From Nitratireductor indicus C115 (GTDB taxonomy: Bacteria > Pseudomonadota > Alphaproteobacteria > Rhizobiales > Rhizobiaceae), in contig NZ_AMSI01000004.1 in assembly GCF_000300515.1 (NCBI RefSeq), positions 1 to 64,000 of the forward strand: 64,000 bases of DNA, written 5' to 3'. The position numbers and the translations under genes were made by a program. Shown here one piece after another: positions 32,579 to 63,900 of this stretch. The notes beneath the pieces were generated by a model. That model saw only the letters and a list, made by a program, of their open reading frames with translations, was not told the origin of the DNA and did not search any database. How positions within the stretch are numbered: the stretch's first letter is position 1; the number at the start of each line of letters is the position of its first letter.

Positions 32579-32690
32579 GGATATCGCAAACGGTGCCGCA
32601 GCCCGCATCGCGCGGCCTCCTTCCCAATCAACAGGTGATGAGCTGACAGCCGGCTTGACAAACTCGCTGCCCTTCATCACCCTGAAGGCT

Positions 32691-32797
32691 CACCTGGGGG
32701 GTCCCGCCAAGGGGCTGAGATTCTGCTGGGCATGGTTATCCATGCAGCGCAGTGACCCGATGAACCTGATCCAGTTCATACTGGCGTAGGGATGGTG
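32691..32797 (+). ncRNA. TPP riboswitch (THI element) upstream of thiC
   Basis: All conserved THI blocks are present in order: CACCTGGGG opening P1, GGGGCTGAGA (CTGAGA at 32715-32720), the variable P3 hairpin, GTGACCCGATGAACCTGATC (to 32771), and the closing GCGTAGGGATGGTG. It binds thiamine pyrophosphate and would shut off the thi operon when the cofactor is plentiful. A 175-nt leader separates it from the thiC ATG, which follows GAGGAGG. A CTTGACA hexamer region at 32654-32660 may be the -35. The remainder of the 394-nt gap holds no gene. Confidence 0.95.
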
Positions 32798-32969
32798 CAA
32801 GCTTCGCGGGCAAACGGCTCTCAGCAGCCGGAAACCATACGGGTCCAAATCCTCGAAGCCCTTCCTCCTCTCGGCAAGAACTGGGTCTCCATTGCGTTGA
32901 GAAGACGCATTTGTCTGCACCGGGCTTCACCGTCCGGCTGCAAAATGCAAATCGCAGAGGAGGCTCTGA

Positions 32970-34787
<1,818 letters not shown>

Positions 34788-48434: not shown

Positions 48435-49367
48435 TCAGCCTTCCATCTGAAGCACATGGGTTGCCTTGATGGCTGCCGAGGCTCGGTTTTCGACTCCGAG
48501 CTTGGCGTAGACCTGCTCCAGATGCTTGTTCACGGTGCGCGGGCTCAACCCCAATATCTCGGCGATGTCGCGATTGGATTTCCCGCGCGCGATCCATAAG
48601 AGAACCTCGCTCTCGCGGTTGGTCAGGCCAAAATTCTGGCGCAGCACTGCATCCTGATCGCCGCTGCCGCCCGCCACAAGCCGGAACAGATGCTCGTCGG
48701 GTGCGATGGTGCCGAGGCATACGAGCTGCAAGCCCGCCGGGCGCTCGGGATCGAGCAACAATGTCTCGCCGGCGAGCGCCGCCGTTCCCCGCTCTGCAAT
48801 CCATGCGCCCGCCCTCTGCGACAGACGCGCCTCGGCATCCGGTCCCAGCTCCGGCGCGCGCAGGAGCCTTGTGGCCTGCGGCGTCACCCACTGGATGCCC
48901 CCGGCCGAAGACAGTGCCAGAAGATGCCGCCCCGCCGCATCCAGCGCCAGGCGCGCGCTCTGGGCGCGGCGGGCATTGGCCAGATGCACTCTTATGCGCG
49001 CGTTCAATTCATCAAGGTTGATGGGCTTGGTGAGATAATCGACCCCGCCTGATTCCAGCGCATGAACCACATGCTCCGTCTCCGTGAGACCGGTCATGAA
49101 GATGACCGGCACATGTGCGACACCCGCCATGGATTTCAGCTTCCGGCAGGTCTCGAACCCATCGAGGCCCGGCATCACCGCGTCCATGAGAATGATGTCC
49201 GGGGCAAGCCGCTCTGCGATGGCCAAGGCCGCCTCGCCGCTGCGCGCCACCAGAACCGTGACGCCCGCCGCTTCCATGGCGCCCGTCAGGAAACCGAGCG
49301 CCTCGGGGGAATCATCGACCACCAGCACGATGTCGCCCGCTGGCCGGGCCGTTGCCACTTCAATCAT
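48435..49367 (-). CDS. Response regulator: receiver plus LuxR-type HTH
   Basis: A 310-residue two-component regulator. The receiver domain (about 12-130) has VVDDS at the acidic pocket, the phosphorylated Asp62 in ILMDAVMPG and the KPIN lysine. A middle segment (about 135-240) looks like a small sensory or PAS-like linker. The C-terminus is a GerE/LuxR helix-turn-helix: LTNRESEVLLWIARGKSNRD, then IAEILGLSPRTVNKHLEQVY. It overlaps the 3' end of the kinase gene by 8 nt, so it is the cognate partner, and the pair is divergent from the urea transporter operon. Confidence 0.92.
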   Translation of the reverse strand: MIEVATARPAGDIVLVVDDSPEALGFLTGAMEAAGVTVLVARSGEAALAIAERLAPDIILMDAVMPGLDGFETCRKLKSMAGVAHVPVIFMTGLTETEHVVHALESGGVDYLTKPINLDELNARIRVHLANARRAQSARLALDAAGRHLLALSSAGGIQWVTPQATRLLRAPELGPDAEARLSQRAGAWIAERGTAALAGETLLLDPERPAGLQLVCLGTIAPDEHLFRLVAGGSGDQDAVLRQNFGLTNRESEVLLWIARGKSNRDIAEILGLSPRTVNKHLEQVYAKLGVENRASAAIKATHVLQMEG

Positions 49368-52300
49368 CGCCGCTCACGCTTTCCAGGAAACGCGTGTAAC
49401 CAGCAAAGTCGTAACTTCGCATATGCGATCTCAATACCTCCACGAACTGGGTGTTGTCCGGCGAGCGCGCAAGCTCCTCCAGCTTGGTTTCGATGCCGCG
49501 CACGTGGCCGATCTGGCCAAGGCCGATCAACTCGCGCACATGGGCCGCACCGGGCGATCTGAGAACAGTGCGGGCAGTGCGCTCTGCCGTATCCCGGTCT
49601 TCGCCTTCATAGACCCATTCAAGCCGCAAATGCCCTTCCAGCTTTTCGAGAAGCTGGCGCAGGGCGAATGGCTTGGCAAGTGCATCGCTATGGCCTGCGT
49701 CGCGCGTGCTGCGGTTGGTGCCGTCGCCGATATTCGCCGACAGCATAACGAGCGGCACGCCAACGCCGCGCGCGCGCAGGCGCTTGACCAGATCCCAGCC
49801 GCTCATGCCTGGCATCAGGATGTCGATGAAGAAGAGGTCGGGCTGGATGGCTTCCGTCAATGTCATGCAATCGGGACCGTCCACGGCGGTCAGCACGGTG
49901 AAGTCGAGCGGTTGAAGCATGTGCCGCATCATCTCGCGGTGCTCGGCATTGTCGTCGACCACGACAATTGTGCGGCGCGGCCCACGATAGGCGACGATGC
50001 GGCGCTCCGAGGGCGCGCTGACGACGGGTCGGTCCACACGCGCAAGCATCAGCCGCACCTGGAATGTGGAGCCGGAGCCCGGTTCGCTTTCCACCGCAAT
50101 GTCGCCGCCCAGCGTCTCCACCAGCAACTTGGTGATGGTAAGGCCTAGCCCCAGCCCCGGCGACAGGCGGTTGCGCTCGGCACTGCCCCGCGCGAAGGGT
50201 TCGAAAATGCGCCCCCGATCCTCCTCGCCAATACCCGGTCCGCTGTCGCCAACGCGGAAATGGGCCACCTCCGAGCGATAGACGACCGCGAATTCCACAT
50301 GACCCCGATCTGTGAACTTGATGGCATTGGAAAGCAGGTTGACGAGAATCTGCCGCAGGCGTTTTTCATCGGCCCGCACATGGCGCGGCAGCGCCTTGTC
50401 ACGGCTGTGACGAAACTCCAGCCCCTTGGCCTCCGCCTGAAGCCGGAACATGTCGACGATCTGGTCGAGAAAATCGGCGAGATTGATCTCGGCCATGTGC
50501 ACCTGCAGCCGCCCGGCCTCGATCTTGGAAATGTCGAGCAGGCCATCGATGAGGCCGGACAGATGCTCGGCGCTGCGGCGGATGACCTTGATGGACGATT
50601 TGCGCGGTGCAGGAATATCGTCCTCGCGCTCGAGGATCTGCGCGTAGCCCATCACGGCATTGAGCGGTGTGCGCAGCTCGTGGCTCAGCCCCACCACATA
50701 GCGGCTCTTGGCCTGGTTGGCCGCCTCCGCCGCTTCCTTGGCGCGCTGGAGTGCGGCGTCGGTCTTACCATGGGCTGCGATCTCCCGGAGCAGCGCCGTG
50801 TTCTGGCGCGAGCTTTCTTCCTCCGCCACGCGGCGGCTGTCTTCGGCCAGCACCAGATACCAGGTAACGATGCCCGCCACGACGGAGAAGACAAAGAAGA
50901 CCACGAGGATCGTTCCGCCCACGACATCGGCTGTCTGGGGGGCCGCCTTGACGGCGAATGTGTAGATCATAGCCAGCATGACGCCGATCAGCGCAACAGC
51001 GAAACCCATCGCCATGCCGTAGCGGCCAAGCCGCGTCTGCAGGGTTTCAATGACGACGGAAGGCAGGATATGCCGGGCGACAGTGGCAGCCTGGGCTCGG
51101 AAATGAGCCTTGGGCTTGCACAGGTCGTGGCAGCGCGCGTCGAGCGAACAGCATAACGAACAGATCGGGGCGGCATAGGCCGGGCACCAGGCCATATCCT
51201 CCGGCTCGAAGGGATGCTCGCAAATGGAACAGGCGATGCTGCCTTCCCCCTGCCATCCCCGCCGCGCCTTGCGCGCAAGATAATAACGCCCGCCCGTGGC
51301 CCAGGCGATTGCGGGTGCCGCGATGAAGGCAATGGCGAGCGCGATATAGGGGGCGAGCGCCGCCGCGAACGGGCCGAACAGGCCGAAATGCGCTGCAAGC
51401 GCGATGGTCGCCGACAGCGTCATGGACCCCATGCCGACCGGGTTGATGTCGTAGAGATGGGCCCGCTTGAACTCGATGCCGGGCGGCGCCAGTCCGAGCG
51501 GCTTGTTGATGAAGAGATCGGCGGAGATGGTGCAGAGCCAGGCCATCGCAACGATGGAAAAGACAGCAAGCGTCGCTTCCAGAAGCCGGTAGATGCCAAG
51601 CTCCATCAAGAGCAGTGCAATGGCCACGTTGAAGAGAAGCCAGACCACCCGGCCGGGATGGCTGTGGGTAAGGCGGGAAAAGAAGTTCGACCACGCAAGC
51701 GAGCCGGCATAGGCATTCATCACGTTGATCTTGAGCTGCGAGACCACAACGAACACGGCCATCAGGATCATCGCCGCCGTTTCGTTGGGGATCATGTAGC
51801 CGAAGGCCACGGCGTACATCTGCGCCGGTTCCGAGGCATGTTCGGCCGGCACGCCCGTCGACAGGACGAGCACAGCGAGAAAGGAACCGGCGAGAAGCTT
51901 CGGCGCACCGAGCACCACCCAGCCCGGCCCCGCCAGGAACACCGCCAGACGGTGGCGCTTGCGCGATTGCTCCTGCGGCGGCAGGAAGCGCAGGAAATCC
52001 ACCTGCTCGCCGATCTGCGTCAAAAGCGCGAGGATGACGGCGGAGGCCGCGCCGAACTGCAACAGGTCGAAAGACGCGACCCCACTGGCAGCCGGCGGCG
52101 CATGGGCGCCGGCAAAGGCGCGCCATAGATCGAATTTCTCCCAGTCTAGAAAGGCGATGAAGAAGAACGGAAGAATGTTGAGGACGATCCAGACGGGCTG
52201 GGTCAGAAGCTGGAAGCGGCTGATGAGACGAACGCCGTGGGTGACGAGCGGAATGACGGCGACCGCGCTGACGATATAGCCGATCCATAATGGCAGGCCG

Positions 52301-52731
52301 AAGGCAAGCTCCAGCGCGCTCGACATGATCGAGGCCTCGATGGCGAAGAGAATGAAGGTGAAGCTGGCATAGACCAGCGAGGTGATGGTGGAGCCGATAT
52401 ATCCAAAGCCCGCGCCGCGCGTGAGAAGGTCGATATCGAGCCCGTGCCGTGTGGCATAACGTGAGATCGGCACGCCGATCACGAGGATCACCGCACTTGC
52501 CACGAGGATCGCGACGAAGGCGTTGGTTGTGCCGTAGGAGAGCGTAATCGCACCGCCGATCGCCTCCAGAGCCAGAAAGGAAATAGCGCCGATAGCGGTT
52601 TGCGATATGCGTTGGCTCGAGAACCGCCGCGCGCTCTTCGCCGTAAAGCGCAGCGCGTAATCCTCCAGCGTCTGGTTGGCCACCCAGCGATTATACTCGC
52701 GCCTGATGGGAAGAATTCGCTGTCGCGCCAT
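49360..52731 (-). CDS. NCS1-type permease fused to hybrid sensor histidine kinase
   Basis: A 1,123-residue fusion. Residues about 5-485 resemble NCS1 (cytosine/purine/allantoin) permeases, with REYNRWVANQTLEDYALRFT at the front and about twelve helices. Eight cysteines follow (501-538: CSIC, C, CSLCC, C, C), like a cross-brace zinc site. Then two helices (about 570-625), a coiled coil (630-675), HisKA with His684 in SHELRTPLNAV, HATPase motifs (DSGPGIGEEDRGRIFEPFAR, then GLGLGLTI), a receiver with FIDILMPGMSG, and an 80-residue tail. It probably senses or transports a urea- or purine-type compound and signals to the LuxR-type regulator. The ATG at 52731 is preferred to a GTG at 52773. Confidence 0.9.
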   Translation of the reverse strand: MARQRILPIRREYNRWVANQTLEDYALRFTAKSARRFSSQRISQTAIGAISFLALEAIGGAITLSYGTTNAFVAILVASAVILVIGVPISRYATRHGLDIDLLTRGAGFGYIGSTITSLVYASFTFILFAIEASIMSSALELAFGLPLWIGYIVSAVAVIPLVTHGVRLISRFQLLTQPVWIVLNILPFFFIAFLDWEKFDLWRAFAGAHAPPAASGVASFDLLQFGAASAVILALLTQIGEQVDFLRFLPPQEQSRKRHRLAVFLAGPGWVVLGAPKLLAGSFLAVLVLSTGVPAEHASEPAQMYAVAFGYMIPNETAAMILMAVFVVVSQLKINVMNAYAGSLAWSNFFSRLTHSHPGRVVWLLFNVAIALLLMELGIYRLLEATLAVFSIVAMAWLCTISADLFINKPLGLAPPGIEFKRAHLYDINPVGMGSMTLSATIALAAHFGLFGPFAAALAPYIALAIAFIAAPAIAWATGGRYYLARKARRGWQGEGSIACSICEHPFEPEDMAWCPAYAAPICSLCCSLDARCHDLCKPKAHFRAQAATVARHILPSVVIETLQTRLGRYGMAMGFAVALIGVMLAMIYTFAVKAAPQTADVVGGTILVVFFVFSVVAGIVTWYLVLAEDSRRVAEEESSRQNTALLREIAAHGKTDAALQRAKEAAEAANQAKSRYVVGLSHELRTPLNAVMGYAQILEREDDIPAPRKSSIKVIRRSAEHLSGLIDGLLDISKIEAGRLQVHMAEINLADFLDQIVDMFRLQAEAKGLEFRHSRDKALPRHVRADEKRLRQILVNLLSNAIKFTDRGHVEFAVVYRSEVAHFRVGDSGPGIGEEDRGRIFEPFARGSAERNRLSPGLGLGLTITKLLVETLGGDIAVESEPGSGSTFQVRLMLARVDRPVVSAPSERRIVAYRGPRRTIVVVDDNAEHREMMRHMLQPLDFTVLTAVDGPDCMTLTEAIQPDLFFIDILMPGMSGWDLVKRLRARGVGVPLVMLSANIGDGTNRSTRDAGHSDALAKPFALRQLLEKLEGHLRLEWVYEGEDRDTAERTARTVLRSPGAAHVRELIGLGQIGHVRGIETKLEELARSPDNTQFVEVLRSHMRSYDFAGYTRFLESVSGDD

Positions 52732-52896
52732 GAATTTGCGGGCTGCCCCTCGCCTCTTGTGTTGCCTCGGCACACAGATGACTACTTTTTGATCATTTCC
52801 GCAATATGCTGAAAATTTAGGCTGGTCGCAGAAGCCGACTAATCCATTGCGAATCCTTGCCTTTTCCTCTCTGGAGCAACTTCAGGAAAAAGGACC

Positions 52897-52912
52897 TACG
52901 TCATTCAACGTA
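52897..52912. promoter_or_regulatory. Candidate regulator site upstream of urtA
   Basis: TACGT-N6-ACGTA, a perfect inverted repeat 95 nt upstream of the urtA ATG, in the gap shared with the sensor kinase gene. LuxR/GerE-type regulators often bind short dyads of this size. No sigma-54 promoter or NtrC site was found in the gap. Confidence 0.4.
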
Positions 52913-53006: not shown

Positions 53007-54302
53007 ATGACTCTCAATCTTACACGCCGCGCGACACTCGCCGCAGCGCTGACCGGCGCAATGGCCCTGTCGCTCGGCCTGGTGCGCGCTGCTGACGACA
53101 CGATCAAGGTCGGCATCCTGCATTCGCTATCCGGCACCATGGCCATTTCGGAAACGACTCTAAAGGACACGATGCTGTTCCTGATCGACGAGCAGAACAA
53201 GAAGGGCGGCCTGCTCGGCAAGAAACTGGAAGCCGTCGTGGTCGATCCGGCCTCAGACTGGCCTCTGTTTGCGGAAAAGGCGCGTGAGCTGATCTCCGTG
53301 AACAAGGTGGCTGCCGTGTTCGGTTGCTGGACCTCGGTCAGCCGCAAGTCGGTTCTGCCGGTGTTCGAGGAACTGAACTCGATCCTGTTCTATCCCGTTC
53401 AGTATGAGGGCGAGGAAAGCCAGCGCAACGTGTTCTACACGGGTGCGGCCCCCAACCAGCAGGCCATTCCCGCCGTCGATTATCTGATGAATGAGGAGGG
53501 CGTGGAACGCTGGGTTCTGGCCGGCACCGACTATGTCTATCCACGTACGACCAACAAGATCCTGGAGCAATATCTCAAGGATAAGGGCGTTGCCGCCGAA
53601 GACATCATGATCAACTACACGCCTTTCGGTCATTCCGACTGGCAGACGATCGTTTCCGACATCAAGGCGTTCGGCTCGGCCGGCAAGAAAACGGCCGTGG
53701 TCTCCACCATCAACGGCGACGCCAACGTGCCCTTCTACAAGGAACTCGGCAACCAGGGCATCTCGGCCACCGACATTCCCGTCGTGGCCTTCTCCGTCGG
53801 CGAGGAGGAACTGGCAGGTATCGACACGGGGCCACTCGTCGGCCATCTCGCCGCGTGGAACTATTTCGAATCCGTCGACACGCCCGAAAACAAGGAATTC
53901 ATCGACAAGTGGCACGCCTATATCGGCAACGACAAGCGCGTGACCAACGATCCGATGGAAGCCCACGTGATCGGCTTCAACCTGTGGGTCAAGGCCGTGG
54001 AGAAGGCCGGCACCACCGACACCGACGCCGTGCTCGATGCGATTATCGGCCTTGAGACGCCGAACCTTACGGGCGGCATCGCCAAGATGCTTCCCAACCA
54101 CCACATCACCAAGCCAGTGCTGATCGGCGAGATTCAGGACAACGGCCAGTTCGACGTGGTGTGGGAAACGGAAGGCACGGTGCCCGGCGACGCCTGGTCG
54201 GACTTCCTGCCCGAATCCAAGATGATCGAGGCCGATTGGACCGCACCGATCAATTGCGGGAACTACAACACCGAAACGAAGGCCTGCGGCGGAGCAAGCT
54301 GA
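53007..54302 (+). CDS. urtA: Urea ABC transporter substrate-binding protein UrtA
   Basis: A 431-residue periplasmic receptor of the branched-chain amino acid/urea type. The signal peptide carries a TRRATLAAALTG pattern that could be Tat-dependent. The mature start IKVGILHSLSGTMAISETTL, FGCWTSVSRKSVLPVFEE and LFYPVQYEGEESQRNVFYTG are diagnostic of UrtA/AmiC-like urea or short-amide receptors. The ATG follows CAGGGGAAC. The first gene of urtABCDE. Confidence 0.95.
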   Translation: MTLNLTRRATLAAALTGAMALSLGLVRAADDTIKVGILHSLSGTMAISETTLKDTMLFLIDEQNKKGGLLGKKLEAVVVDPASDWPLFAEKARELISVNKVAAVFGCWTSVSRKSVLPVFEELNSILFYPVQYEGEESQRNVFYTGAAPNQQAIPAVDYLMNEEGVERWVLAGTDYVYPRTTNKILEQYLKDKGVAAEDIMINYTPFGHSDWQTIVSDIKAFGSAGKKTAVVSTINGDANVPFYKELGNQGISATDIPVVAFSVGEEELAGIDTGPLVGHLAAWNYFESVDTPENKEFIDKWHAYIGNDKRVTNDPMEAHVIGFNLWVKAVEKAGTTDTDAVLDAIIGLETPNLTGGIAKMLPNHHITKPVLIGEIQDNGQFDVVWETEGTVPGDAWSDFLPESKMIEADWTAPINCGNYNTETKACGGAS

Positions 54303-54412: not shown

Positions 54413-56032
54413 ATGTCAGTCATCCGCCTCGTCATAAGCATGATTGCCACGCTTCTTCTGCTGGCGGCAACAGCGCCGTCCATGGCACAGACGGACCCGC
54501 TTCAGACACTGGTCCAGGCCCTGCCCAAGGGCGGCTACGCGGAGCGGGAAAAAGTTATCCTCGACCTGGCCGGAACCGGCGATCCTCGCGTGGCGGATGT
54601 GCTTGGGGCACTCGGCAAGGGCGATCTCTACACGCTCAAGGACAGCGGGACCGTCATTGTCGCGACCGGACGCGGAAACAGCCTGGAAACCGCCGACCCT
54701 CTGACGGGTAAAGCGCTTGGCGCCGTGGACAAGAGCGGCCTCGACAAGATTCGCGTCAACAATCGCCTGCGCCGCGCCATCGACAGCGCCGTCGGTCAGC
54801 TCACCCTGATGGGCAAGGACCCCGCCACCCGCCTTGCGGCGGCACAAAGCATGCTGAAGACCACCGATCCGGCGGCAATCGGGATGCTCGACACGGCAAT
54901 CGCCCAGGAAGACGACGCACGCGTCAAAACCGCGATGGAACAGGCACGTGCCGCGGCTCTGCTCAAATCCGATGCAGCGCTTGAAAACAAGATCGCCGCA
55001 ATCGACACGCTGATCGCGAAGGGCGACCGTGAGGCACTGGCCTTTCTCACGGGCGCCCGCAGCGGCGCTTCCGCAGACCTCCTGCCCGCCATCGAGAGCG
55101 GCATCAAATCCATCGAAGACAAGCTCGCCTTCTGGTCGGCGTTGCAGAATGTCTGGTACGGGCTTTCGCTTGGTTCCGTTCTTCTTCTTGCGGCCATCGG
55201 CCTTGCCATCACCTTCGGCGTGATGGGCGTCATCAACATGGCCCATGGCGAGATCGTTATGCTCGGCGCCTACACAACCTTTGTCGTGCAGGAGGTGATC
55301 CGCAATAATTTCCCGGGCCTGTTCGACTATTCGCTGGCCATCGCACTGCCGCTGGCCTTTCTGGTGACGGGGGCCGTGGGCGTGGCCATAGAGCGCGGCA
55401 TCATCCGCTGGCTCTACGGCCGCCCGCTCGAAACACTGCTTGCGACGTGGGGCCTGAGCCTCATCCTCCAGCAGACGGTGCGCACCATCTTCGGCCCCAA
55501 CAACCGCGAGGTGGGCAATCCTTCCTGGATGTCCGGCGCCTTCGACCTGTGGGGCCTGTCCATCACCTGGAACCGGTTGTGGATCGTCATCTTCGCCATG
55601 ATCGTCTTCGCGGTGCTGCTTGCCGTGCTCAACCGCACGCCGCTCGGCCTGCAGATGCGCGCCGTCACGCAGAACCGGCGCATGGCTTCATCCATGGGTA
55701 TCCGCACCCCCTGGGTCGACGCGCTGACCTTCGGTCTTGGCTCGGGCATCGCCGGCATTGCCGGTGTCGCGCTCTCGCAGATCGACAATGTCTCGCCCAA
55801 TCTCGGTCAGAGCTACATCATCGACAGTTTCATGGTCGTCGTCTTCGGGGGTGTCGGCAATCTGTGGGGAACGCTGGTCGGCGCGCTGACACTCGGCATC
55901 GCCAACAAATTCCTCGAACCCTATGCGGGCGCGGTGCTGGGCAAGATCCTCATCCTCGTCTTCATCATTCTTTTCATCCAGAGACGGCCGCGCGGGCTAT
56001 TCGCCCTCAAGGGCCGGGCGGTGGACGCATGA
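54413..56032 (+). CDS. urtB: Urea ABC transporter permease UrtB
   Basis: A 539-residue permease. Unlike LivH it has a signal sequence and a large periplasmic N-terminal region (about 25-235) made of helical repeats, as usual for UrtB. The C-terminal half has the LivH-type core: GLAITFGVMGVINMAHGEIV, ERGIIRWLYGRPLETLLATW and MRAVTQNRRMASSMGI. The start follows the palindromic repeat. It overlaps urtC by ATGA. Confidence 0.95.
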   Translation: MSVIRLVISMIATLLLLAATAPSMAQTDPLQTLVQALPKGGYAEREKVILDLAGTGDPRVADVLGALGKGDLYTLKDSGTVIVATGRGNSLETADPLTGKALGAVDKSGLDKIRVNNRLRRAIDSAVGQLTLMGKDPATRLAAAQSMLKTTDPAAIGMLDTAIAQEDDARVKTAMEQARAAALLKSDAALENKIAAIDTLIAKGDREALAFLTGARSGASADLLPAIESGIKSIEDKLAFWSALQNVWYGLSLGSVLLLAAIGLAITFGVMGVINMAHGEIVMLGAYTTFVVQEVIRNNFPGLFDYSLAIALPLAFLVTGAVGVAIERGIIRWLYGRPLETLLATWGLSLILQQTVRTIFGPNNREVGNPSWMSGAFDLWGLSITWNRLWIVIFAMIVFAVLLAVLNRTPLGLQMRAVTQNRRMASSMGIRTPWVDALTFGLGSGIAGIAGVALSQIDNVSPNLGQSYIIDSFMVVVFGGVGNLWGTLVGALTLGIANKFLEPYAGAVLGKILILVFIILFIQRRPRGLFALKGRAVDA

Positions 56033-57195
56033 TCACGCAAACTCTCATCCGCGCACTGGACCGCAAGGCACTCTTCGTCGTCGCCCTGCTTCTCTTCATC
56101 GCGGTGGCGGTGCCGGTCTCCAATCTCTACCTGCCGGAGGGGCACCCGCTGCGTGTGCCCGACCATTTCGTCCCGCTGTTCGGCAAATACCTGACCTATG
56201 CCATGCTGGCGCTGGCGCTCGATCTGGTGTGGGGCTATTGCGGCATTCTCTCGCTTGGCCATGGCGCGTTCTTCGCCCTCGGCGGCTATGCGATGGGCAT
56301 GTACCTGATGCGTCAGATCGGTGATCGCGGCGTCTATGCGAACCCGGTCCTGCCCGACTTCATGGTATTCCTGAACTGGAAGGAACTGCCCTGGTTCTGG
56401 CACGGCTTCGACATGTTCTGGTTCGCGGCGCTCATGGTGGTTGCGGTGCCGGGCCTGCTTGCCTTCGTCTTCGGCTGGCTCGCTTTCCGAAGCAGGGTCA
56501 CTGGCGTCTATCTCTCCATCATCAGCCAGGCCATGACCTATGCGCTGCTGCTTGCCTTCTTCCGCAACGACATGGGCTTCGGCGGCAATAACGGCCTGAC
56601 CGACTTCAAGGATATTCTCGGCACGCCGATCCAGTCCGGCACGACACGCGCCGTTCTTTTCGCCGCCTCCGCCATAGCGCTGGCGCTCGCCTTCCTGGTC
56701 TGTTCGGCCATCGTGCGCTCCAAGCTCGGCAAGGTGCTGGTCGCGGTGCGCGACGCAGAAAGCAGGACGCGCTTCCTCGGTTACCGGGTGGACAATTACA
56801 AGCTGTTCGCCTTCACCGCCTCGGCCATCATCGCCGGCATTGCCGGCGCGCTCTACGTGCCGCAGGTGGGCATCATCAATCCGGGCGAATTCGCCCCGGC
56901 CAATTCTATCGAGATCGTCATCTGGACCGCCGTCGGGGGACGCGGCACGCTGATCGGCCCGATTATCGGCGCCGTGCTCGTCAACGCCGGAAAATCCTGG
57001 TTCACCGGCGTCCTTCCCGAATTCTGGCTGTTTGCGTTGGGCGGTCTTTTCGTGGCGGTCACCATCTTGCTGCCGAAGGGCATCGTCGGTGCCTTTACCG
57101 GCGGCTGGTCGGCGCTGAAGGCAAGGCGCGCTTCAGCACGCGCCGAGGAAGGAACGAACCTTTCCGGCGACCTCAAGACCTCGCCGGCGGAGTGA
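56029..57195 (+). CDS. urtC: Urea ABC transporter permease UrtC
   Basis: A 388-residue LivM-type permease. LDLVWGYCGILSLGHGAFFA, FRNDMGFGGNNGLTDFKDIL and AVRDAESRTRFLGYRVDNYK are conserved UrtC segments. About eight to ten helices, with a short hydrophilic tail. The start is fixed by the ATGA overlap with urtB; the frame open further upstream is antisense-like noise over urtB. It pairs with UrtB in the channel. Confidence 0.95.
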   Translation: MITQTLIRALDRKALFVVALLLFIAVAVPVSNLYLPEGHPLRVPDHFVPLFGKYLTYAMLALALDLVWGYCGILSLGHGAFFALGGYAMGMYLMRQIGDRGVYANPVLPDFMVFLNWKELPWFWHGFDMFWFAALMVVAVPGLLAFVFGWLAFRSRVTGVYLSIISQAMTYALLLAFFRNDMGFGGNNGLTDFKDILGTPIQSGTTRAVLFAASAIALALAFLVCSAIVRSKLGKVLVAVRDAESRTRFLGYRVDNYKLFAFTASAIIAGIAGALYVPQVGIINPGEFAPANSIEIVIWTAVGGRGTLIGPIIGAVLVNAGKSWFTGVLPEFWLFALGGLFVAVTILLPKGIVGAFTGGWSALKARRASARAEEGTNLSGDLKTSPAE

Positions 57196-57199
57196 CATT

Positions 57200-57946
57200 A
57201 TGGGCAGACAGGAAACCCTCCTCTATCTCGACGGCGTCTCCGTTTCCTTCGACGGGTTCAAGGCGATCAACAACCTTTCCTTGATCGTCGGGCACAACGA
57301 GCTGCAGGCCATCATCGGTCCGAACGGCGCCGGCAAGACGACGATGATGGACATCATCACCGGCAAGACGCGGCCCGACGAGGGCGACGTCTATTTCTCC
57401 GGCACGGTCGACCTAACGAAGCTCGACGAGGCGGCGATCGCCGAACTCGGCATTGGCCGGAAATTCCAGAAGCCGACCGTCTTCGAGAGTCATACCATAC
57501 GGGACAATCTGGAACTCGCATTGAAGAAGCCCCGCGATGTCTTCTCGGCCTGGTTCTACCAGCCGGACGACAAGGACACCGCCCGCATCGACGAAATCCT
57601 CGACATGGTGCGGCTGACGGCGCGCGCGCAGGAGCTTGCCGCCAATCTAAGCCATGGGCAGAAGCAATGGCTGGAAATCGGCATGCTGCTTGCGCAGGAC
57701 CCCCAACTCCTGCTGGTCGATGAACCTGTTGCCGGCATGACCGACGCGGAGACTGTGGAAACGGCAAAGCTTCTGAAGGATATCGCCACGACACGCTCCG
57801 TCGTCGTCGTTGAGCACGACATGAGTTTTATCCGCGATCTCGCCGCCCGCGTGACGGTGCTCGCGGAGGGCTCCGTTCTGGCGCAGGGCAGCCTCGACCA
57901 TGTGAGCGCGGATCCGCGCGTCATCGAAAGCTATCTGGGGAGGTGA
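57200..57946 (+). CDS. urtD: Urea ABC transporter ATP-binding protein UrtD
   Basis: A 248-residue LivG-type ATPase. Walker A is IGPNGAGKTTMMD, the signature NLSHGQKQWLEIGMLL (the LSHGQ form typical of UrtD) and Walker B LLLVDEPVAGMTDAE. GRKFQKPTVFESHTIRDNLE is the Q-loop region. It follows urtC by 4 nt and abuts urtE. Confidence 0.96.
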   Translation: MGRQETLLYLDGVSVSFDGFKAINNLSLIVGHNELQAIIGPNGAGKTTMMDIITGKTRPDEGDVYFSGTVDLTKLDEAAIAELGIGRKFQKPTVFESHTIRDNLELALKKPRDVFSAWFYQPDDKDTARIDEILDMVRLTARAQELAANLSHGQKQWLEIGMLLAQDPQLLLVDEPVAGMTDAETVETAKLLKDIATTRSVVVVEHDMSFIRDLAARVTVLAEGSVLAQGSLDHVSADPRVIESYLGR

Positions 57947-57948
57947 GG

Positions 57949-58653
57949 ATGGGAACCGGTCTGAGCATTGACGGTATCGACCTCTACTACGGCGCCGCAC
58001 AGGCGCTGCGCGGCGTCAGCGTCGAGGCAGAGCCGGCAAAGATCACCGCCGTTCTTGGGCGCAACGGTGTCGGCAAGTCCTCCCTGCTCAGGGCAATCGC
58101 CGGCATTCAGCCGGTGGCGCGCGGCGAGATCGCCATAGGTGGAGAAAACATGCGCCGGACACCGCCCTATGCCCGGGCGCGGCTTGGGCTCGGCTATGTG
58201 CCGCAGGGACGGGAAATCTTCCCGCTCCTGACGGTGAGGGAGAACCTGCAGACGGGCTTTGCCCCGCTGAAGCCCGCTGAACGCAACATTCCCGACACGG
58301 TGTTCACCCTGTTTCCGGTACTGAAGAACATGCTGTCGCGGCGCGGCGGCGATCTGTCCGGCGGCCAGCAGCAGCAACTTGCCATCGGACGGGCTCTGGT
58401 CACGCGGCCCAGAGTGCTGATACTCGACGAGCCGACGGAAGGCATTCAACCCTCGATTATCAAGGATATCGGTCGCGCATTGCAGTTTTTGCGTGATGAA
58501 TTGGGTATGACTATTCTTCTTGTTGAACAATATCTCGACTTCTGCCGCGACCTGGCCGACAGTATCTACATCATGGATCGAGGCGAGATCCTGCATACCG
58601 GGCCCGCTTCCGATCTCGACAAACCCGAGATCAAGCGTCATCTCACGGTATGA
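57949..58653 (+). CDS. urtE: Urea ABC transporter ATP-binding protein UrtE
   Basis: A 234-residue LivF-type ATPase. Walker A is LGRNGVGKSSLLR, the signature DLSGGQQQQLAIGRALV and Walker B VLILDEPTEGIQPS. The ATG at 57949 fits GGGGAGG; a GTG at 57943 overlapping the urtD stop is possible. ureD starts 5 nt after it, which ties urea uptake directly to urease. Confidence 0.95.
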   Translation: MGTGLSIDGIDLYYGAAQALRGVSVEAEPAKITAVLGRNGVGKSSLLRAIAGIQPVARGEIAIGGENMRRTPPYARARLGLGYVPQGREIFPLLTVRENLQTGFAPLKPAERNIPDTVFTLFPVLKNMLSRRGGDLSGGQQQQLAIGRALVTRPRVLILDEPTEGIQPSIIKDIGRALQFLRDELGMTILLVEQYLDFCRDLADSIYIMDRGEILHTGPASDLDKPEIKRHLTV

Positions 58654-58657
58654 GCCA

Positions 58658-59509
58658 GTGATCGTGCAGTCAGCGGCAAGCCCGTCCAAGGAGCCTCCCT
58701 TATCCCCTGCCCGTCTTCAGCGGGCGCAGGGAACAGGGTGCATTGGCGTTGCCCATAGCGAAGGCCGAACCCGGCTCAAGACGTTTTTCCAGGAAGGCTG
58801 CGCCAAGATTCGCCTGCCCCGCGCGCATCGCGGCGCGCTCGAGGCCGTCATCATCAACACCTCGGGCGGCCTGACCGGCGGCGACAGGCTCGACTGGCAC
58901 GCGGAAGCAGGCGCAGACGCGCGACTTTCCCTCACCACGCAGGCCTGCGAGCGCATCTACCGCTCAGCCGGGGGTGACGCCGATGTCTCGACCCGGCTCG
59001 TCATCGGCGAAAACGCGCATATCGACTGGCTGCCGCAGGAAACCATTCTGTTCGAACGCAGCCGGCTCAAACGGAGCCTGACCGTCGAGCTTGCAGCAGG
59101 CGCGACCTTCACCGGCGTCGAAGCCGTGCTCCTCGGGCGCGAGGCGATGGGGGAAAAAGCCCGCACCGCCCGGCTTCGCGACAACTGGCGCATCTTCCGG
59201 GAAGGGCGCCTCATCCATGCGGAAGCGACACGCCTGACCGGAGCCGACCATGAGCGCGACGGGCTGTCGCTTCTCGCCGGCAACAATGCCTTTGCCACGC
59301 TGCTTGCCATCGCTCCGAACGCCGACGCCCGGCTTGAACCGCTGCGCCGCCTTTTACCCGCCGGCGCACAGGCTGACGCGAGCGCCATCGGCGAAAGGCT
59401 GGTGCTGCGCCTTGCCGCTCCCTCGGGACTTGCCCTGCGGCGCGTACTGGCTCCCGCGATTGTCTATCTCTCGGGCGCGGGCGCCTTGCCCCGCCTGTGG
59501 ACCATCTGA
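58658..59509 (+). CDS. ureD: Urease accessory protein UreD
   Basis: A 283-residue scaffold for nickel loading of urease (UreD/UreH family). RTRLKTFFQEGCAKIRLPRA, INTSGGLTGGDRL and TTQACERIYRS are family hallmarks, followed by WLPQETILFERSRLKRSL. There is no usable ATG; the GTG at 58658 (or 58664) just after urtE is the likely start, so translation is probably coupled to urtE. Confidence 0.93.
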   Translation: MIVQSAASPSKEPPLSPARLQRAQGTGCIGVAHSEGRTRLKTFFQEGCAKIRLPRAHRGALEAVIINTSGGLTGGDRLDWHAEAGADARLSLTTQACERIYRSAGGDADVSTRLVIGENAHIDWLPQETILFERSRLKRSLTVELAAGATFTGVEAVLLGREAMGEKARTARLRDNWRIFREGRLIHAEATRLTGADHERDGLSLLAGNNAFATLLAIAPNADARLEPLRRLLPAGAQADASAIGERLVLRLAAPSGLALRRVLAPAIVYLSGAGALPRLWTI

Positions 59510-59524
59510 ACCAGGAAACCCCGC

Positions 59525-59827
59525 ATGAACCTGACACCGCGCGAAAAAGACAAGCTCCTCATCGCCATGGCGGCCATGGTCGCCCGAAGGCGGCTGGAGC
59601 GCGGCGTGAAGCTCAACCATCCGGAAGCGGTGGCTCTCATCACCGACTTCGTGGTGGAGGGCGCACGCGACGGGCGCAGCGTCGCCGATCTGATGGAAGC
59701 GGGCGCGCATGTCGTCACCCGCGCGCAGGTGATGGAGGGCGTGCCCGAGATGATCCACGACATTCAGGTGGAGGCCACCTTCCCGGACGGAACCAAGCTC
59801 GTCACCGTCCACGAACCCATTCGCTGA
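59525..59827 (+). CDS. ureA: Urease gamma subunit UreA
   Basis: A 100-residue urease gamma subunit. [20 protein letters not shown], the [20 protein letters not shown] segment and [18 protein letters not shown] are conserved. It forms the (UreABC)3 complex with the genes below. It starts 15 nt after ureD. Confidence 0.97.
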
Positions 59828-59904
59828 AACATTTCCTGAAGAAGCAGGCTCGCTTCGCCAGGATAAACCGCAAAAACAAGACTCCAGAACCACGGGGAAC
59901 CAGA

Positions 59905-60486
59905 ATGTTACGACGCCTCTCGCTTGCCGCCTTCCTTGCCCTTTCCGCTACGGCGCCTGCCTTCGCGCATCTCAATCCGGCCGAGCACGGTTCCCTCGCC
60001 GCCGGTTTTTCGCACCCTCTCTTCGGTCTTGACCATATTCTGGTGATGGTGGCGGTGGGCCTGTGGGCCGCCAACCTCGGAGGACGGGCCCTGTATCTGG
60101 TTCCCGCCGCCTTCGTCGGCACGATGATCGCAGGTTTTGGCGCAGCCATTCTCGGCGCGCCGCTGCCCTTCGTGGAACCGGTCATCCTCGCTTCGATCGT
60201 GTTCCTGGGGCTGATGGTGACCCTTGCTCTACCCCTCCCCCTGGGCGGCGTGATGGGCGCCGTGGCCTTCTTCGCCTTCTTTCACGGCCACGCCCATGGT
60301 GGTGAACTGGGGGCGGCGGGCGCATTGCTCTTCGCAGCCGGCTTCGCAATCGCGACGGCCATGCTCCACGCGGCCGGCATAGGGGCGGGCATCGCGCTCG
60401 GACGTGTGCAGCGGGCAGGGCTCTTCACCCGCATTGCCGGTGCAGCCACGGCGCTTGCCGGTCTCTGGCTCGCCTTCGCCGGCTGA
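59905..60486 (+). CDS. HupE/UreJ-family membrane protein (probable nickel uptake)
   Basis: A 193-residue membrane protein with a signal sequence ending AFA-HLNP and six or so helices. The HupE/UreJ motif [19 protein letters not shown] (about 37-55) and [10 protein letters not shown] (about 126-135) carry the conserved His and Asp residues. These proteins are linked to nickel or cobalt entry beside hydrogenase and urease genes. The gene lies inside the urease operon between ureA and ureB. The ATG at 59905 follows GGGGAAC. Confidence 0.88.
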
Positions 60487-60508
60487 GCAACAGGCAGGGA
60501 GAAGAGCC

Positions 60509-60813
60509 ATGATACCCGGCGAAATCATCACCGCTACCGGCGAGATCGAACTCAACGCGGGGGCCGAGCGTGTGACGCTCGAAGTCGCCAACAGCGGCGA
60601 CCGGCCCGTGCAGGTCGGCTCGCATTATCATTTCTACGAAACCAATCCGGCGCTGAAGTTCGACCGCGACAAGGCGCGGGGCTTTCGGCTCGACATCGCC
60701 GCCGGCACCGCCGTGCGCTTCGAGCCGGGGCAGACGCGCGAGGTGACGCTGGTGCCGATCTCAGGTGCGCGGCGGATCTACGGGTTCCGCCAGGAAATCA
60801 TGGGAGCGCTGTA

Positions 60814-60814
<1 letters not shown>
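60509..60814 (+). CDS. ureB: Urease beta subunit UreB
   Basis: A 101-residue urease beta subunit: [20 protein letters not shown], then [16 protein letters not shown] and [15 protein letters not shown] are diagnostic. The start at 60509 follows AGGGAGAAG. The stop and the ureC start share one base (TAATG). Confidence 0.97.
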
Positions 60815-62523
<1,709 letters not shown>

Positions 62524-62577
62524 CTTCGCCGGTGCCGAAAATGCCAGCCCATGGCAACCTCAAGGAGTCCATTTGCG

Positions 62578-63186
62578 ATGATTGCCTGGACGTTGTTCAT
62601 CCCGGCCTGTTTCGCGCTCAATTGCGCGCCGGGCCCGAACAACATGCTTGCCTTCGCCAACGGCGCACGTCTGGGGCTGGTGCCGGCCTTCCTCGGCGGA
62701 ATGGGGCGCATTCCCGCCTTCTCGCTGATGATCCTCATCACCGTGATCGGCCTCGGCACGATCCTTGCCGCCTCGGCGATGGCCTTCACCGCGATCAAGA
62801 TCGCCGGCGCTGTCTATCTCGTCTATGTGGGCATCCAGTTCTGGCGCAAGGCGCGCGCCATGGCCGCTGCCCGCTCGCTCGATTCCGCCCTGTGGTCGCT
62901 GATGCGCCGCGATTTCATGATGGCGATCAGCAATCCAAAGGCAATCGCGATCTTCACGGCATTCTTTCCACAGTTCATCACGGCGGCCGAACCCGCCTGG
63001 CGACAACTCGCGGCGATGGGCGGCGTGTTCCTTTTGCTCGAGGTCGGCGCAGTCGCGCTTTATGCCGTAGCCGGCGTGGCGTTCGGCAAAGTATTGAAAT
63101 CCGAGCGTGTCTTCGTCTACCTCAACCGCTTCGTGGGCGCAGTGCTCATCATTTCGGGCGGCAGCATGGCCCTCTCCCGATCCTGA
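62578..63186 (+). CDS. LysE/RhtB-family amino-acid exporter
   Basis: A 202-residue membrane protein with six helices. CAPGPNNMLAFANGARLGLV is the family signature near the N-terminus, and RRDFMMAISNPKAIAIFTAF is the conserved middle. The family exports amino acids or similar small molecules. The start was moved to 62578 behind AAGGAG; an ATG at 62551 is less likely. It sits 54 nt after ureC in the same direction, where ureE would be expected. The exported compound is unknown. Confidence 0.9.
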   Translation: MIAWTLFIPACFALNCAPGPNNMLAFANGARLGLVPAFLGGMGRIPAFSLMILITVIGLGTILAASAMAFTAIKIAGAVYLVYVGIQFWRKARAMAAARSLDSALWSLMRRDFMMAISNPKAIAIFTAFFPQFITAAEPAWRQLAAMGGVFLLLEVGAVALYAVAGVAFGKVLKSERVFVYLNRFVGAVLIISGGSMALSRS

Positions 63187-63357
63187 GGATGCAGCGGAAT
63201 GACGCGCTGCAGGGTCTTTCCTTCGCAAGTGCAACATGCTCTATTCCCGATGCCGTTTCCGAAGCCCTCCTCCCGGCTTCCGGAATTCACCACCAAAAGC
63301 GCGATGACGCCCCGAATTCTCGTGGGCGCCGCCTGATATTTGCCCAAGGAGTCTTCA

Positions 63358-63900
63358 ATGACCGTGAGAAAAGTTCCCGATGTGACGTTCCGCACCCGCG
63401 TGCGCGACGAAGCCATCGAAGGACCGAACCCTTTCCGCTGGGAAGACAAGACGACCGCCGACTATTTCGCTGGCAAGCGCGTGGTGCTCTTCTCGCTGCC
63501 GGGCGCCTTCACCCCGACCTGCTCGACCTTCCAGCTTCCCGACTTCGAGAAGCTCTATGGCGAATTCCAGGCACAGGGCATCGACGAAATCTACTGCATC
63601 TCCGTCAACGACGCCTTCGTCATGAATGCCTGGGGCAAGTCCCAGGGCCTGAAGAATGTGAAGCTCATCCCGGATGGTTCGGGCGAGTTCACCCGCAAGA
63701 TGGGCATGCTGGTCGCCAAGGACAATCTCGGTTTCGGCATGCGCTCCTGGCGCTATGCCGCCGTGGTCAACAACGGTTTGATCGAGAAGTGGTTCGAGGA
63801 AGAAGGTTTCTCCGACAACTGCGATACGGACCCCTATGGCGTTTCCTCACCGCAGAACATTCTCGAGGCATTGAAGGCCGGCGAAGCCGTCGCAGCCTGA
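63358..63900 (+). CDS. Prx5-type peroxiredoxin
   Basis: A 180-residue thiol peroxidase of the Prx5/AhpE-like branch. The peroxidatic Cys55 is in PGAFTPTCSTFQLPDFEKLY, the hallmark of Prx5. The other catalytic residues (Thr52, Arg of GMRSWRYA) are present. A second cysteine in CISVND and one in DNCDTDPYGV could resolve the intermediate. It reduces peroxides in the cytoplasm using glutathione/glutaredoxin or thioredoxin. The ATG follows CAAGGAG. It stands alone with its own terminator. Confidence 0.93.
   Translation: MTVRKVPDVTFRTRVRDEAIEGPNPFRWEDKTTADYFAGKRVVLFSLPGAFTPTCSTFQLPDFEKLYGEFQAQGIDEIYCISVNDAFVMNAWGKSQGLKNVKLIPDGSGEFTRKMGMLVAKDNLGFGMRSWRYAAVVNNGLIEKWFEEEGFSDNCDTDPYGVSSPQNILEALKAGEAVAA

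Follow-up and report, generated by a model that had tools for sequence, protein, structure and literature searches.

Which signal is read by a sensor kinase that carries an entire permease at its N-terminus, and which genes does it control? The question is raised by a gene (49360–52731, reverse strand) in a 64 000-nucleotide stretch of Nitratireductor indicus C115 DNA, which was analysed as a whole and is called the window below. Open reading frame translation, Pfam and AlphaFold/Foldseek identify the product as a hybrid sensor kinase of 1123 residues. The initial annotation of the locus had proposed a transporter used as a sensor, following the logic of CbrA, and both the fold and the gene context support this idea at the level of sequence. 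Taken as a whole, our best explanation, which we consider likely, is that the protein is a transporter-derived urea sensor controlling the urt and ure genes through a LuxR-type partner.

Architecture of the kinase and of its locus

From the N-terminus to the C-terminus, the protein comprises an NCS1-related permease module (residues ~20–490), a cysteine module (501–538), a transmembrane hairpin (568–631), a coiled coil, a HisKA domain, a HATPase domain and a receiver. The hairpin corresponds to two hydrophobic stretches following the cysteine module (568–598 and 599–631), and in the predicted structure a long helix leads from it to the kinase part. Pfam places HisKA at residues 675–740, the HATPase at 788–896 and the receiver at 922–1031, and the catalytic residues H684 (HisKA), N798 and D970 (receiver) are present; it detects no domain N-terminal of HisKA, and the protein has a receiver but no Pfam HPt domain. 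An alternative GTG start at 52773 lies 5′ of the ATG, and conservation begins at the ATG. The order of domains given in the initial annotation (permease, eight-cysteine cluster, coiled coil, histidine kinase and receiver) was thus borne out by Pfam, AlphaFold/Foldseek and residue checks.

The kinase gene overlaps by 8 nt the gene of a LuxR/GerE-type response regulator (REC–GerE by Pfam, 310 residues; 48435–49367, reverse strand), whose phospho-acceptor D62 is kept in 155/155 aligned homologues. The pair therefore contains the HisKA histidine, the HATPase, the receiver aspartate and the partner-regulator aspartate of a hybrid-kinase two-component system (Pfam and residue check). Both genes are divergent from urtABCDE–ureDAJBC on the forward strand: urtA at 53007–54302, urtB, urtC, urtD and urtE at 54413–58653 (by their translations, a homologous gene string being annotated urtA–E elsewhere), and ureD (start codon not settled), ureA, hupE/ureJ, ureB and ureC at 58640–62523 (by their translations). 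The overlap and the divergence, both claimed initially, are confirmed by these coordinates. On the 3′ side of ureC (62523–63900) lie a LysE-type exporter gene and then a redoxin-family gene; in reading on to the end of the window, no ureE, ureF or ureG was noticed. Antisense to ureC, Rfam 5_ureB_sRNA (RF02514) matches at 60967–61255 (reverse strand) with 128 bits, which most likely reflects conserved urease coding sequence and is no evidence for an sRNA. Elsewhere in the window, a TPP riboswitch (32685–32810, forward strand) lies 5′ of the open reading frame at 32973.

Comparison of the AlphaFold model with known structures by Foldseek placed residues ~22–513 nearest to CodB and Mhp1, i.e. in a LeuT-type fold. 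The module shares this fold with Mhp1 and CodB, although the identity in structural alignments is only 13–16% and a kinase is attached here. By sequence the relationship is remote: Pfam, NCBIfam and phmmer searches with the whole kinase pick up only the kinase and receiver, and an HMM built from six N-domains found no permease in the PDB. By hhalign, the permease module aligns to four PF02133 members with a probability of 97 and an E-value of 8e-11. A direct PF02133 match is absent at E ≤ 1 (Pfam) both for the kinase and for a 41%-identical Acinetobacter permease, while a 29%-identical free-standing relative clears the PF02133 cut-off; we therefore term the module NCS1-related and do not file it under PF02133. 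An SSF (SLC5) domain was not found in the kinase at E ≤ 1 (Pfam), and CodB and Mhp1 outrank SLC5 structures in the fold search. According to a two-step alignment (hhalign of the module to L177, then phmmer of L177 to Mhp1), Mhp1 Gln121 is replaced by Glu132 and Mhp1 Ser312 by Lys334.

Seven residues of the module (E132, Q239, E242, D245, K334, N336 and N339) are kept in 157/157 sensors (homologues 700 residues or longer whose context had been labelled) and are shared with 5/6 aligned free-standing relatives. There is hence no sign of a loss of transport, and this speaks for a different reading, possible but in our judgement unlikely, in which the permease module is functional in urea transport (a transceptor) and the kinase responds to the transport flux or to urea in the cytoplasm, and not to ligand binding as such. 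Such a reading would agree with CbrA, whose SLC5 domain by itself suffices for histidine uptake according to the available text of one report (PMC13022988); it agrees less well with the Amt-kinase Ks-Amt5, described in the accessible part of its report as having lost transport (PMC5764959), or with the presence of a dedicated ABC importer encoded next door. The SLC5 domain of CbrA is also described, in the portion available of another source, as inessential for signal perception (PMC9100948), so that sensing need not reside in a permease domain. We nonetheless prefer a permease module that itself senses urea by binding it.

Gene neighbourhoods of the sensors and of their free-standing relatives

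At E ≤ 0.001, the permease module is matched in 27/385 genomes of the class (in one case with an identity of only 22%) and in 65/398 genomes of the phylum, where the weakest matches are free-standing permeases and 57 kinase-type loci were counted. A scan of named genomes gave at least 592 relatives and indicates that the sensor family is common in rhizobia; the 80 loci kept from it are mainly from Devosia, Rhizobium, Sinorhizobium, Agrobacterium, Neorhizobium and Bradyrhizobium. The module is also matched by 530 plasmid records, 342 of them from Klebsiella, and in a spread sample of 60 plasmid rows most Klebsiella matches have kinase-type names.

In four partly overlapping surveys, 153/166 homologous loci adjoin urea genes (urt/ure) or amide genes (an urt-like transporter and/or formamidase); since the surveys overlap and hold close relatives, these counts are of loci and not of events. 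The transporter was called urt when the best urtA match had at least 60% identity and urt-like below 60%. The first survey (23 kinase loci; 20/23 with such genes) comprises ten loci with true urt, three with urt-like and formamidase genes, seven with formamidase and AmiS/UreI genes, all seven encoding short kinases without a receiver, and three with none. The class genomes (25 loci; 20/25) gave seven urt, 11 urt-like with formamidase, two urt-like and five none, and the phylum genomes (38 of the 57 loci; 37/38) gave 21 urt-like with formamidase, seven urt, seven ure, two formamidase with AmiS, and one none, on a 4.8-kb contig. Finally, the named genomes (80 loci; 76/80) gave 63 urt, 12 urt-like with formamidase, one urt-like and four none. 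Annotated plasmid regions of Klebsiella, Thioclava, Methylosinus and Paracoccus agree with the urea/amide context.

At 13 of the 166 loci, the stretch examined contains none of the urt, ure and FmdA genes. Four of them end at contig ends (L058, L220, L154 and L146), one holds a partial kinase (L084), two stand for a single place, from which urtA is 9 kb distant (L047 and L152), one has a distant AmiF-like match (L170) and one encodes a short sister from the genus Devosia (L086); the real exceptions are L071–L073 and L079. The initial annotation had made its reading depend on a neighbourhood link to urea or purine genes, and the link to urea genes withstood this survey.

Short sister kinases without a receiver (L053–L057, L059, L087, L187, L213 and L216) adjoin the formamidase gene fmdA and an AmiS/UreI-type channel gene; in one of them, from Paracoccus (L187), a stand-alone REC-kinase protein and an OmpR-type regulator come after the short kinase. 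On a Klebsiella IncFIB plasmid (AP022554.1; L183), the kinase–regulator pair is found with an urt-like transporter and the formamidase AmiF, near ClpK/Hsp20 heat-survival genes and an acetamidase gene. In the available text of the respective reports, an urt operon of Pseudomonas veronii that adjoins fmdA has been proposed to import formamide (PMC13209695), and urtABC of R. leguminosarum is induced in acidic minimal medium, with no regulator given there (PMC11547076).

The permease module also has relatives that are not fused to a kinase, and six of 15 such rows were examined (H61 as L184, H62, H69, H71, H73 and H75). At five of the six loci, the permease gene adjoins urease, formamidase or amidase genes: urease in Acinetobacter ursingii, A. 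johnsonii and Klebsiella (there 3′ of ureG), formamidase in Moraxella and an aliphatic amidase in Arthrobacter; the Streptomyces permease has no urea/amide gene among its annotated neighbours. A 29%-identical relative in genome G612 precedes a double C–N hydrolase and an AmiC-like protein, as judged from their translations. Some of these permeases (L307:6956–8563, L184:9950–11557 and L308:6926–8569) are annotated as cytosine or allantoin permeases and adjoin urease or formamidase genes; they are probably urea/amide permeases. The most likely interpretation is that this subfamily handles urea and small amides, which would suggest that bacteria have a urea/amide permease subfamily concealed by other annotations.

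Could the ligand instead be allantoin, a hydantoin or a purine, the urea genes being downstream steps of its degradation? Such compounds are transported by members of the fold family, relatives are annotated as allantoin or cytosine permeases, and a distant free-standing permease of Rhodococcus (~30% identical) adjoins hydantoinase/oxoprolinase genes. However, no gene of a purine or allantoin enzyme is found in the annotated neighbourhoods from Klebsiella, Thioclava, Methylosinus and Paracoccus or in those of the six free-standing relatives examined, and the amide-linked branch has formamidase, which fits urea-like ligands; we regard this alternative as very improbable. Among the ligands listed in the initial annotation, urea is thus favoured by context, and allantoin, hydantoin and purine are not, these annotated neighbourhoods being of the urea/amide kind in all but Streptomyces.

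How the modules might distinguish urea from amides was approached through a tree of 91 modules (thinned rows), in which contexts cluster (19 changes versus 42.5 when shuffled), yet with several switches. Among 49 representatives under 75% identity, residue 128 best separates the contexts, with 12 Leu and five Phe in the urea-linked modules (n = 17) and Phe in 32/32 amide-linked ones. In the two-step alignment it corresponds to Mhp1 Trp117, which we take to be the substrate-stacking residue, and the invariant E132 to Mhp1 Gln121. In a paired test, residue 128 never changed the wrong way, whereas positions 234 and 238 sometimes did; with just four independent and well supported switches no column can reach significance, and residue 128 is therefore a lead. 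The wider proposal, of an NCS1-derived urea/short-chain-amide transceptor family that has been fused to a kinase, has switched between urea and formamide and is shared with the misnamed free-standing permeases, seems to us evenly balanced between right and wrong.

The cysteine module (C-x2-C-x11-C-x7-C-x2-CC-x5-C-x3-C; 51118–51231, reverse strand, as positioned from the residue numbering) is strictly conserved: all eight cysteines are present in 156/157 homologues, the exception (L217) being cut off by the 575-residue extraction. Four cysteines (CxxC...CxxC) are found at the C-terminus of the Klebsiella, Moraxella, Streptomyces and Acinetobacter free-standing relatives (4/6), and not in those of Arthrobacter and Rhodococcus, so that part of the module probably came with the permease. 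Modelled alone (pLDDT 81), it gave no significant fold match; weak matches are spread over several zinc-finger folds, many of them treble-clef and cross-brace. A B-box fold appeared only as a TRIM54 chain at E = 8 in a PDB profile search, the fold searches not being significant. The module probably binds zinc and would be cytoplasmic, together with the kinase, provided that the customary topology of 12 helices applies to the permease.

Urease requires nickel, and this requirement, like the invariance of the eight cysteines, would suit a scheme in which the cysteine module is the true sensor of nickel, zinc or redox state and the permease is a membrane anchor. The cysteines are equally strict in cousins with amide-gene neighbours, though, and the four that are kept in free-standing permeases are as expected for a structural zinc site; we find this scheme improbable and retain the permease module as the candidate urea sensor.

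A palindrome upstream of urtA

Between the divergent genes, the palindrome TACGTCATTCAACGTA (52897–52912), a putative operator of the regulator, starts, at its 5′ end, 110 bp ahead of the ATG of urtA. It differs by two mismatches from the 16-bp consensus TACGTCA-nn-TGACGTA, as does the next-best match in the genome (C21:22409). Its strict form, TACGT-N6-ACGTA, occurs once in the 4.99-Mb N. indicus genome, upstream of urtA. A reversed control pattern gives 0–6 matches per genome, the same order as the palindrome, and the single match is therefore telling by its location and not by its rarity.

Across 95 divergent kinase–urtA regions, TACGT-N6-ACGTA is the top inverted repeat, being present in 36 of the 43 regions with true urtA; the 52 urt-like regions show ATACG-N8-CGTAT in 27, TACGC-N6-GCGTA in 18 and TACGT-N6-ACGTA in 15. 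In 20 dinucleotide-randomised sets, no dyad whatsoever was found in more than two (true urt) or three (urt-like) regions. The loose form, TACG-N8-CGTA, occurs in 41/43 true-urt and 39/52 urt-like divergent regions (random means 0.07 and 0.1), which leaves 13/52 urt-like kinase loci without it near urtA; counted by rows, it precedes the urt-like urtA in 39/53, one row (L223) being a free-standing permease. It lies 80–121 bp upstream of true urtA in 79/90 kinase-bearing loci, at any distance of the kinase, and the 11/90 without a site near urtA fall mostly in two divergent clades, several having a site near the kinase instead. The site is also kept at urtA where the kinase is far off: on pSymB of S. 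meliloti (L188), it lies 101 bp ahead of the start of urtA, with the kinase at a distance of ~8 kb; in G024, sites precede both urtA and the kinase gene, 9 kb apart; and in two loci outside the class where the kinase adjoins ureA (L206 and L214), a variant site stands just before urtA. The Bradyrhizobium variant is TACGCGATCTTGCGTA. The scan of nine short-kinase loci (L053–L057, L059, L086, L087 and L187) gave no TACG-N8-CGTA, and no sigma-54-like promoter was found in the 43 true-urt or the 52 urt-like intergenic regions.

The palindrome follows the presence of the kinase. The loose form is absent from the urtA promoters of kinase-free genomes (0/18), and in the 30 urtA promoters of relatives scanned for the strict form, of 35 matches listed, it is present in 11/11 with an urt-type kinase and 0/18 without a kinase, as well as 0/1 in G030, where the kinase is part of a formamidase cluster. 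This distribution supports a role of the palindrome as a putative operator controlling urtA, and with it the target genes suggested by the initial annotation. Some genomes also have the strict form at places other than urtA, as in G720, with three such copies and the loose form at its urtA. Another lies in G477 (L305:6650), a near-perfect palindrome with no urt, ure or formamidase query above 100 bits, and is possibly a further target or chance.

One may wonder whether the palindrome belongs to another nitrogen regulator, its link with the kinase being a phylogenetic coincidence. Related genomes share promoters, and the pairing of regulator and palindrome proposed here is a prediction. Moreover, the putative recognition helix of the Bradyrhizobium and Afipia regulators reads TVDKHLE, and these regulators occur with TACGC...GCGTA sites, but so do regulators with TVNKHLE and TVTKHLE, so that helix and site variants do not pair cleanly. 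Nevertheless, within the family of N. indicus the palindrome is found at urtA in 9/9 genomes with an urt-type kinase versus 0/8 without the kinase, and two kinase-bearing members of other families agree, which makes a coincidence, in our estimation, improbable compared with control by the kinase-linked regulator.

Proposed mechanism and relation to known sensors

In the mechanism that we propose, the permease module, of a urea/short-chain-amide subfamily, would bind urea at the membrane, and its alternating-access movement would be relayed through the cytoplasmic, probably zinc-containing cysteine module to the transmembrane hairpin, the coiled coil and the kinase. The kinase would then phosphorylate the LuxR-type regulator, the product of the overlapping gene, its own receiver serving as a phosphate sink or a relay. 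Once phosphorylated, the regulator may bind the TACGTCA-nn-TGACGTA site ~100 bp upstream of urtA and turn on, presumably as an activator and not a repressor, urtABCDE; the ure genes would be turned on too if they are co-transcribed as the distal part of the urt gene string. Cousin sensors would have been retuned several times to formamide-type amides, and would control formamidase and an urt-like transporter.

Dedicated sensors of urea itself are, to our knowledge, hardly known, and none was found among the open-access literature matches listed; nor did these matches include a description of an NCS1–kinase fusion. The closest systems are the SLC5/STAC kinases (CbrA, CrbS and RpuS), which, in the available part of their description, likewise join a permease to a kinase, have a LuxR-type partner and control nutrient-use genes, those of Sinorhizobium also having the C-terminal receiver and LuxR partners of the present layout (PMC9100948). 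They differ in carrying an SLC5 permease with STAC and PAS domains where this kinase has an NCS1-related permease, a cysteine module and a transmembrane hairpin, and they lack its urea/amide gene context. By sequence, the kinase part is no particularly close match to the probable SLC5-type kinase of G030 (31.6% over residues 620–997, E = 3e-29, tblastn), another kinase of that genome scoring 188.8 bits.

Ks-Amt5 of Kuenenia is likewise a nitrogen-nutrient transporter turned kinase sensor, in which nothing but DHp and CA domains is attached to the Amt module and for which the accessible text names no response regulator (PMC5764959). With these SLC5/STAC and Amt precedents, an NCS1-type sensor is a variant of transporter–kinase fusions and not a new category. 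In Ectopseudomonas guguanensis G3, a hybrid kinase and a LuxR regulator adjoin urtABCDE operon III, to which fmdA is close by locus number; these genes were compared by their description, the available part of which mentions no permease domain, ligand or operator (PMC13296017).

If the proposed mechanism is true, an importer would have become a signal receptor by an apparently independent third route, beside the SLC5- and Amt-type kinases, and the predicted operator, together with the natural series of urea/amide switches, would make the coupling of a transporter cycle to a kinase testable. In two homologous loci, a small open reading frame of ~100 residues lies just 5′ of the kinase gene (L186:11653–11970 and L170:9660–9950), an arrangement that recalls cbrX before cbrA.
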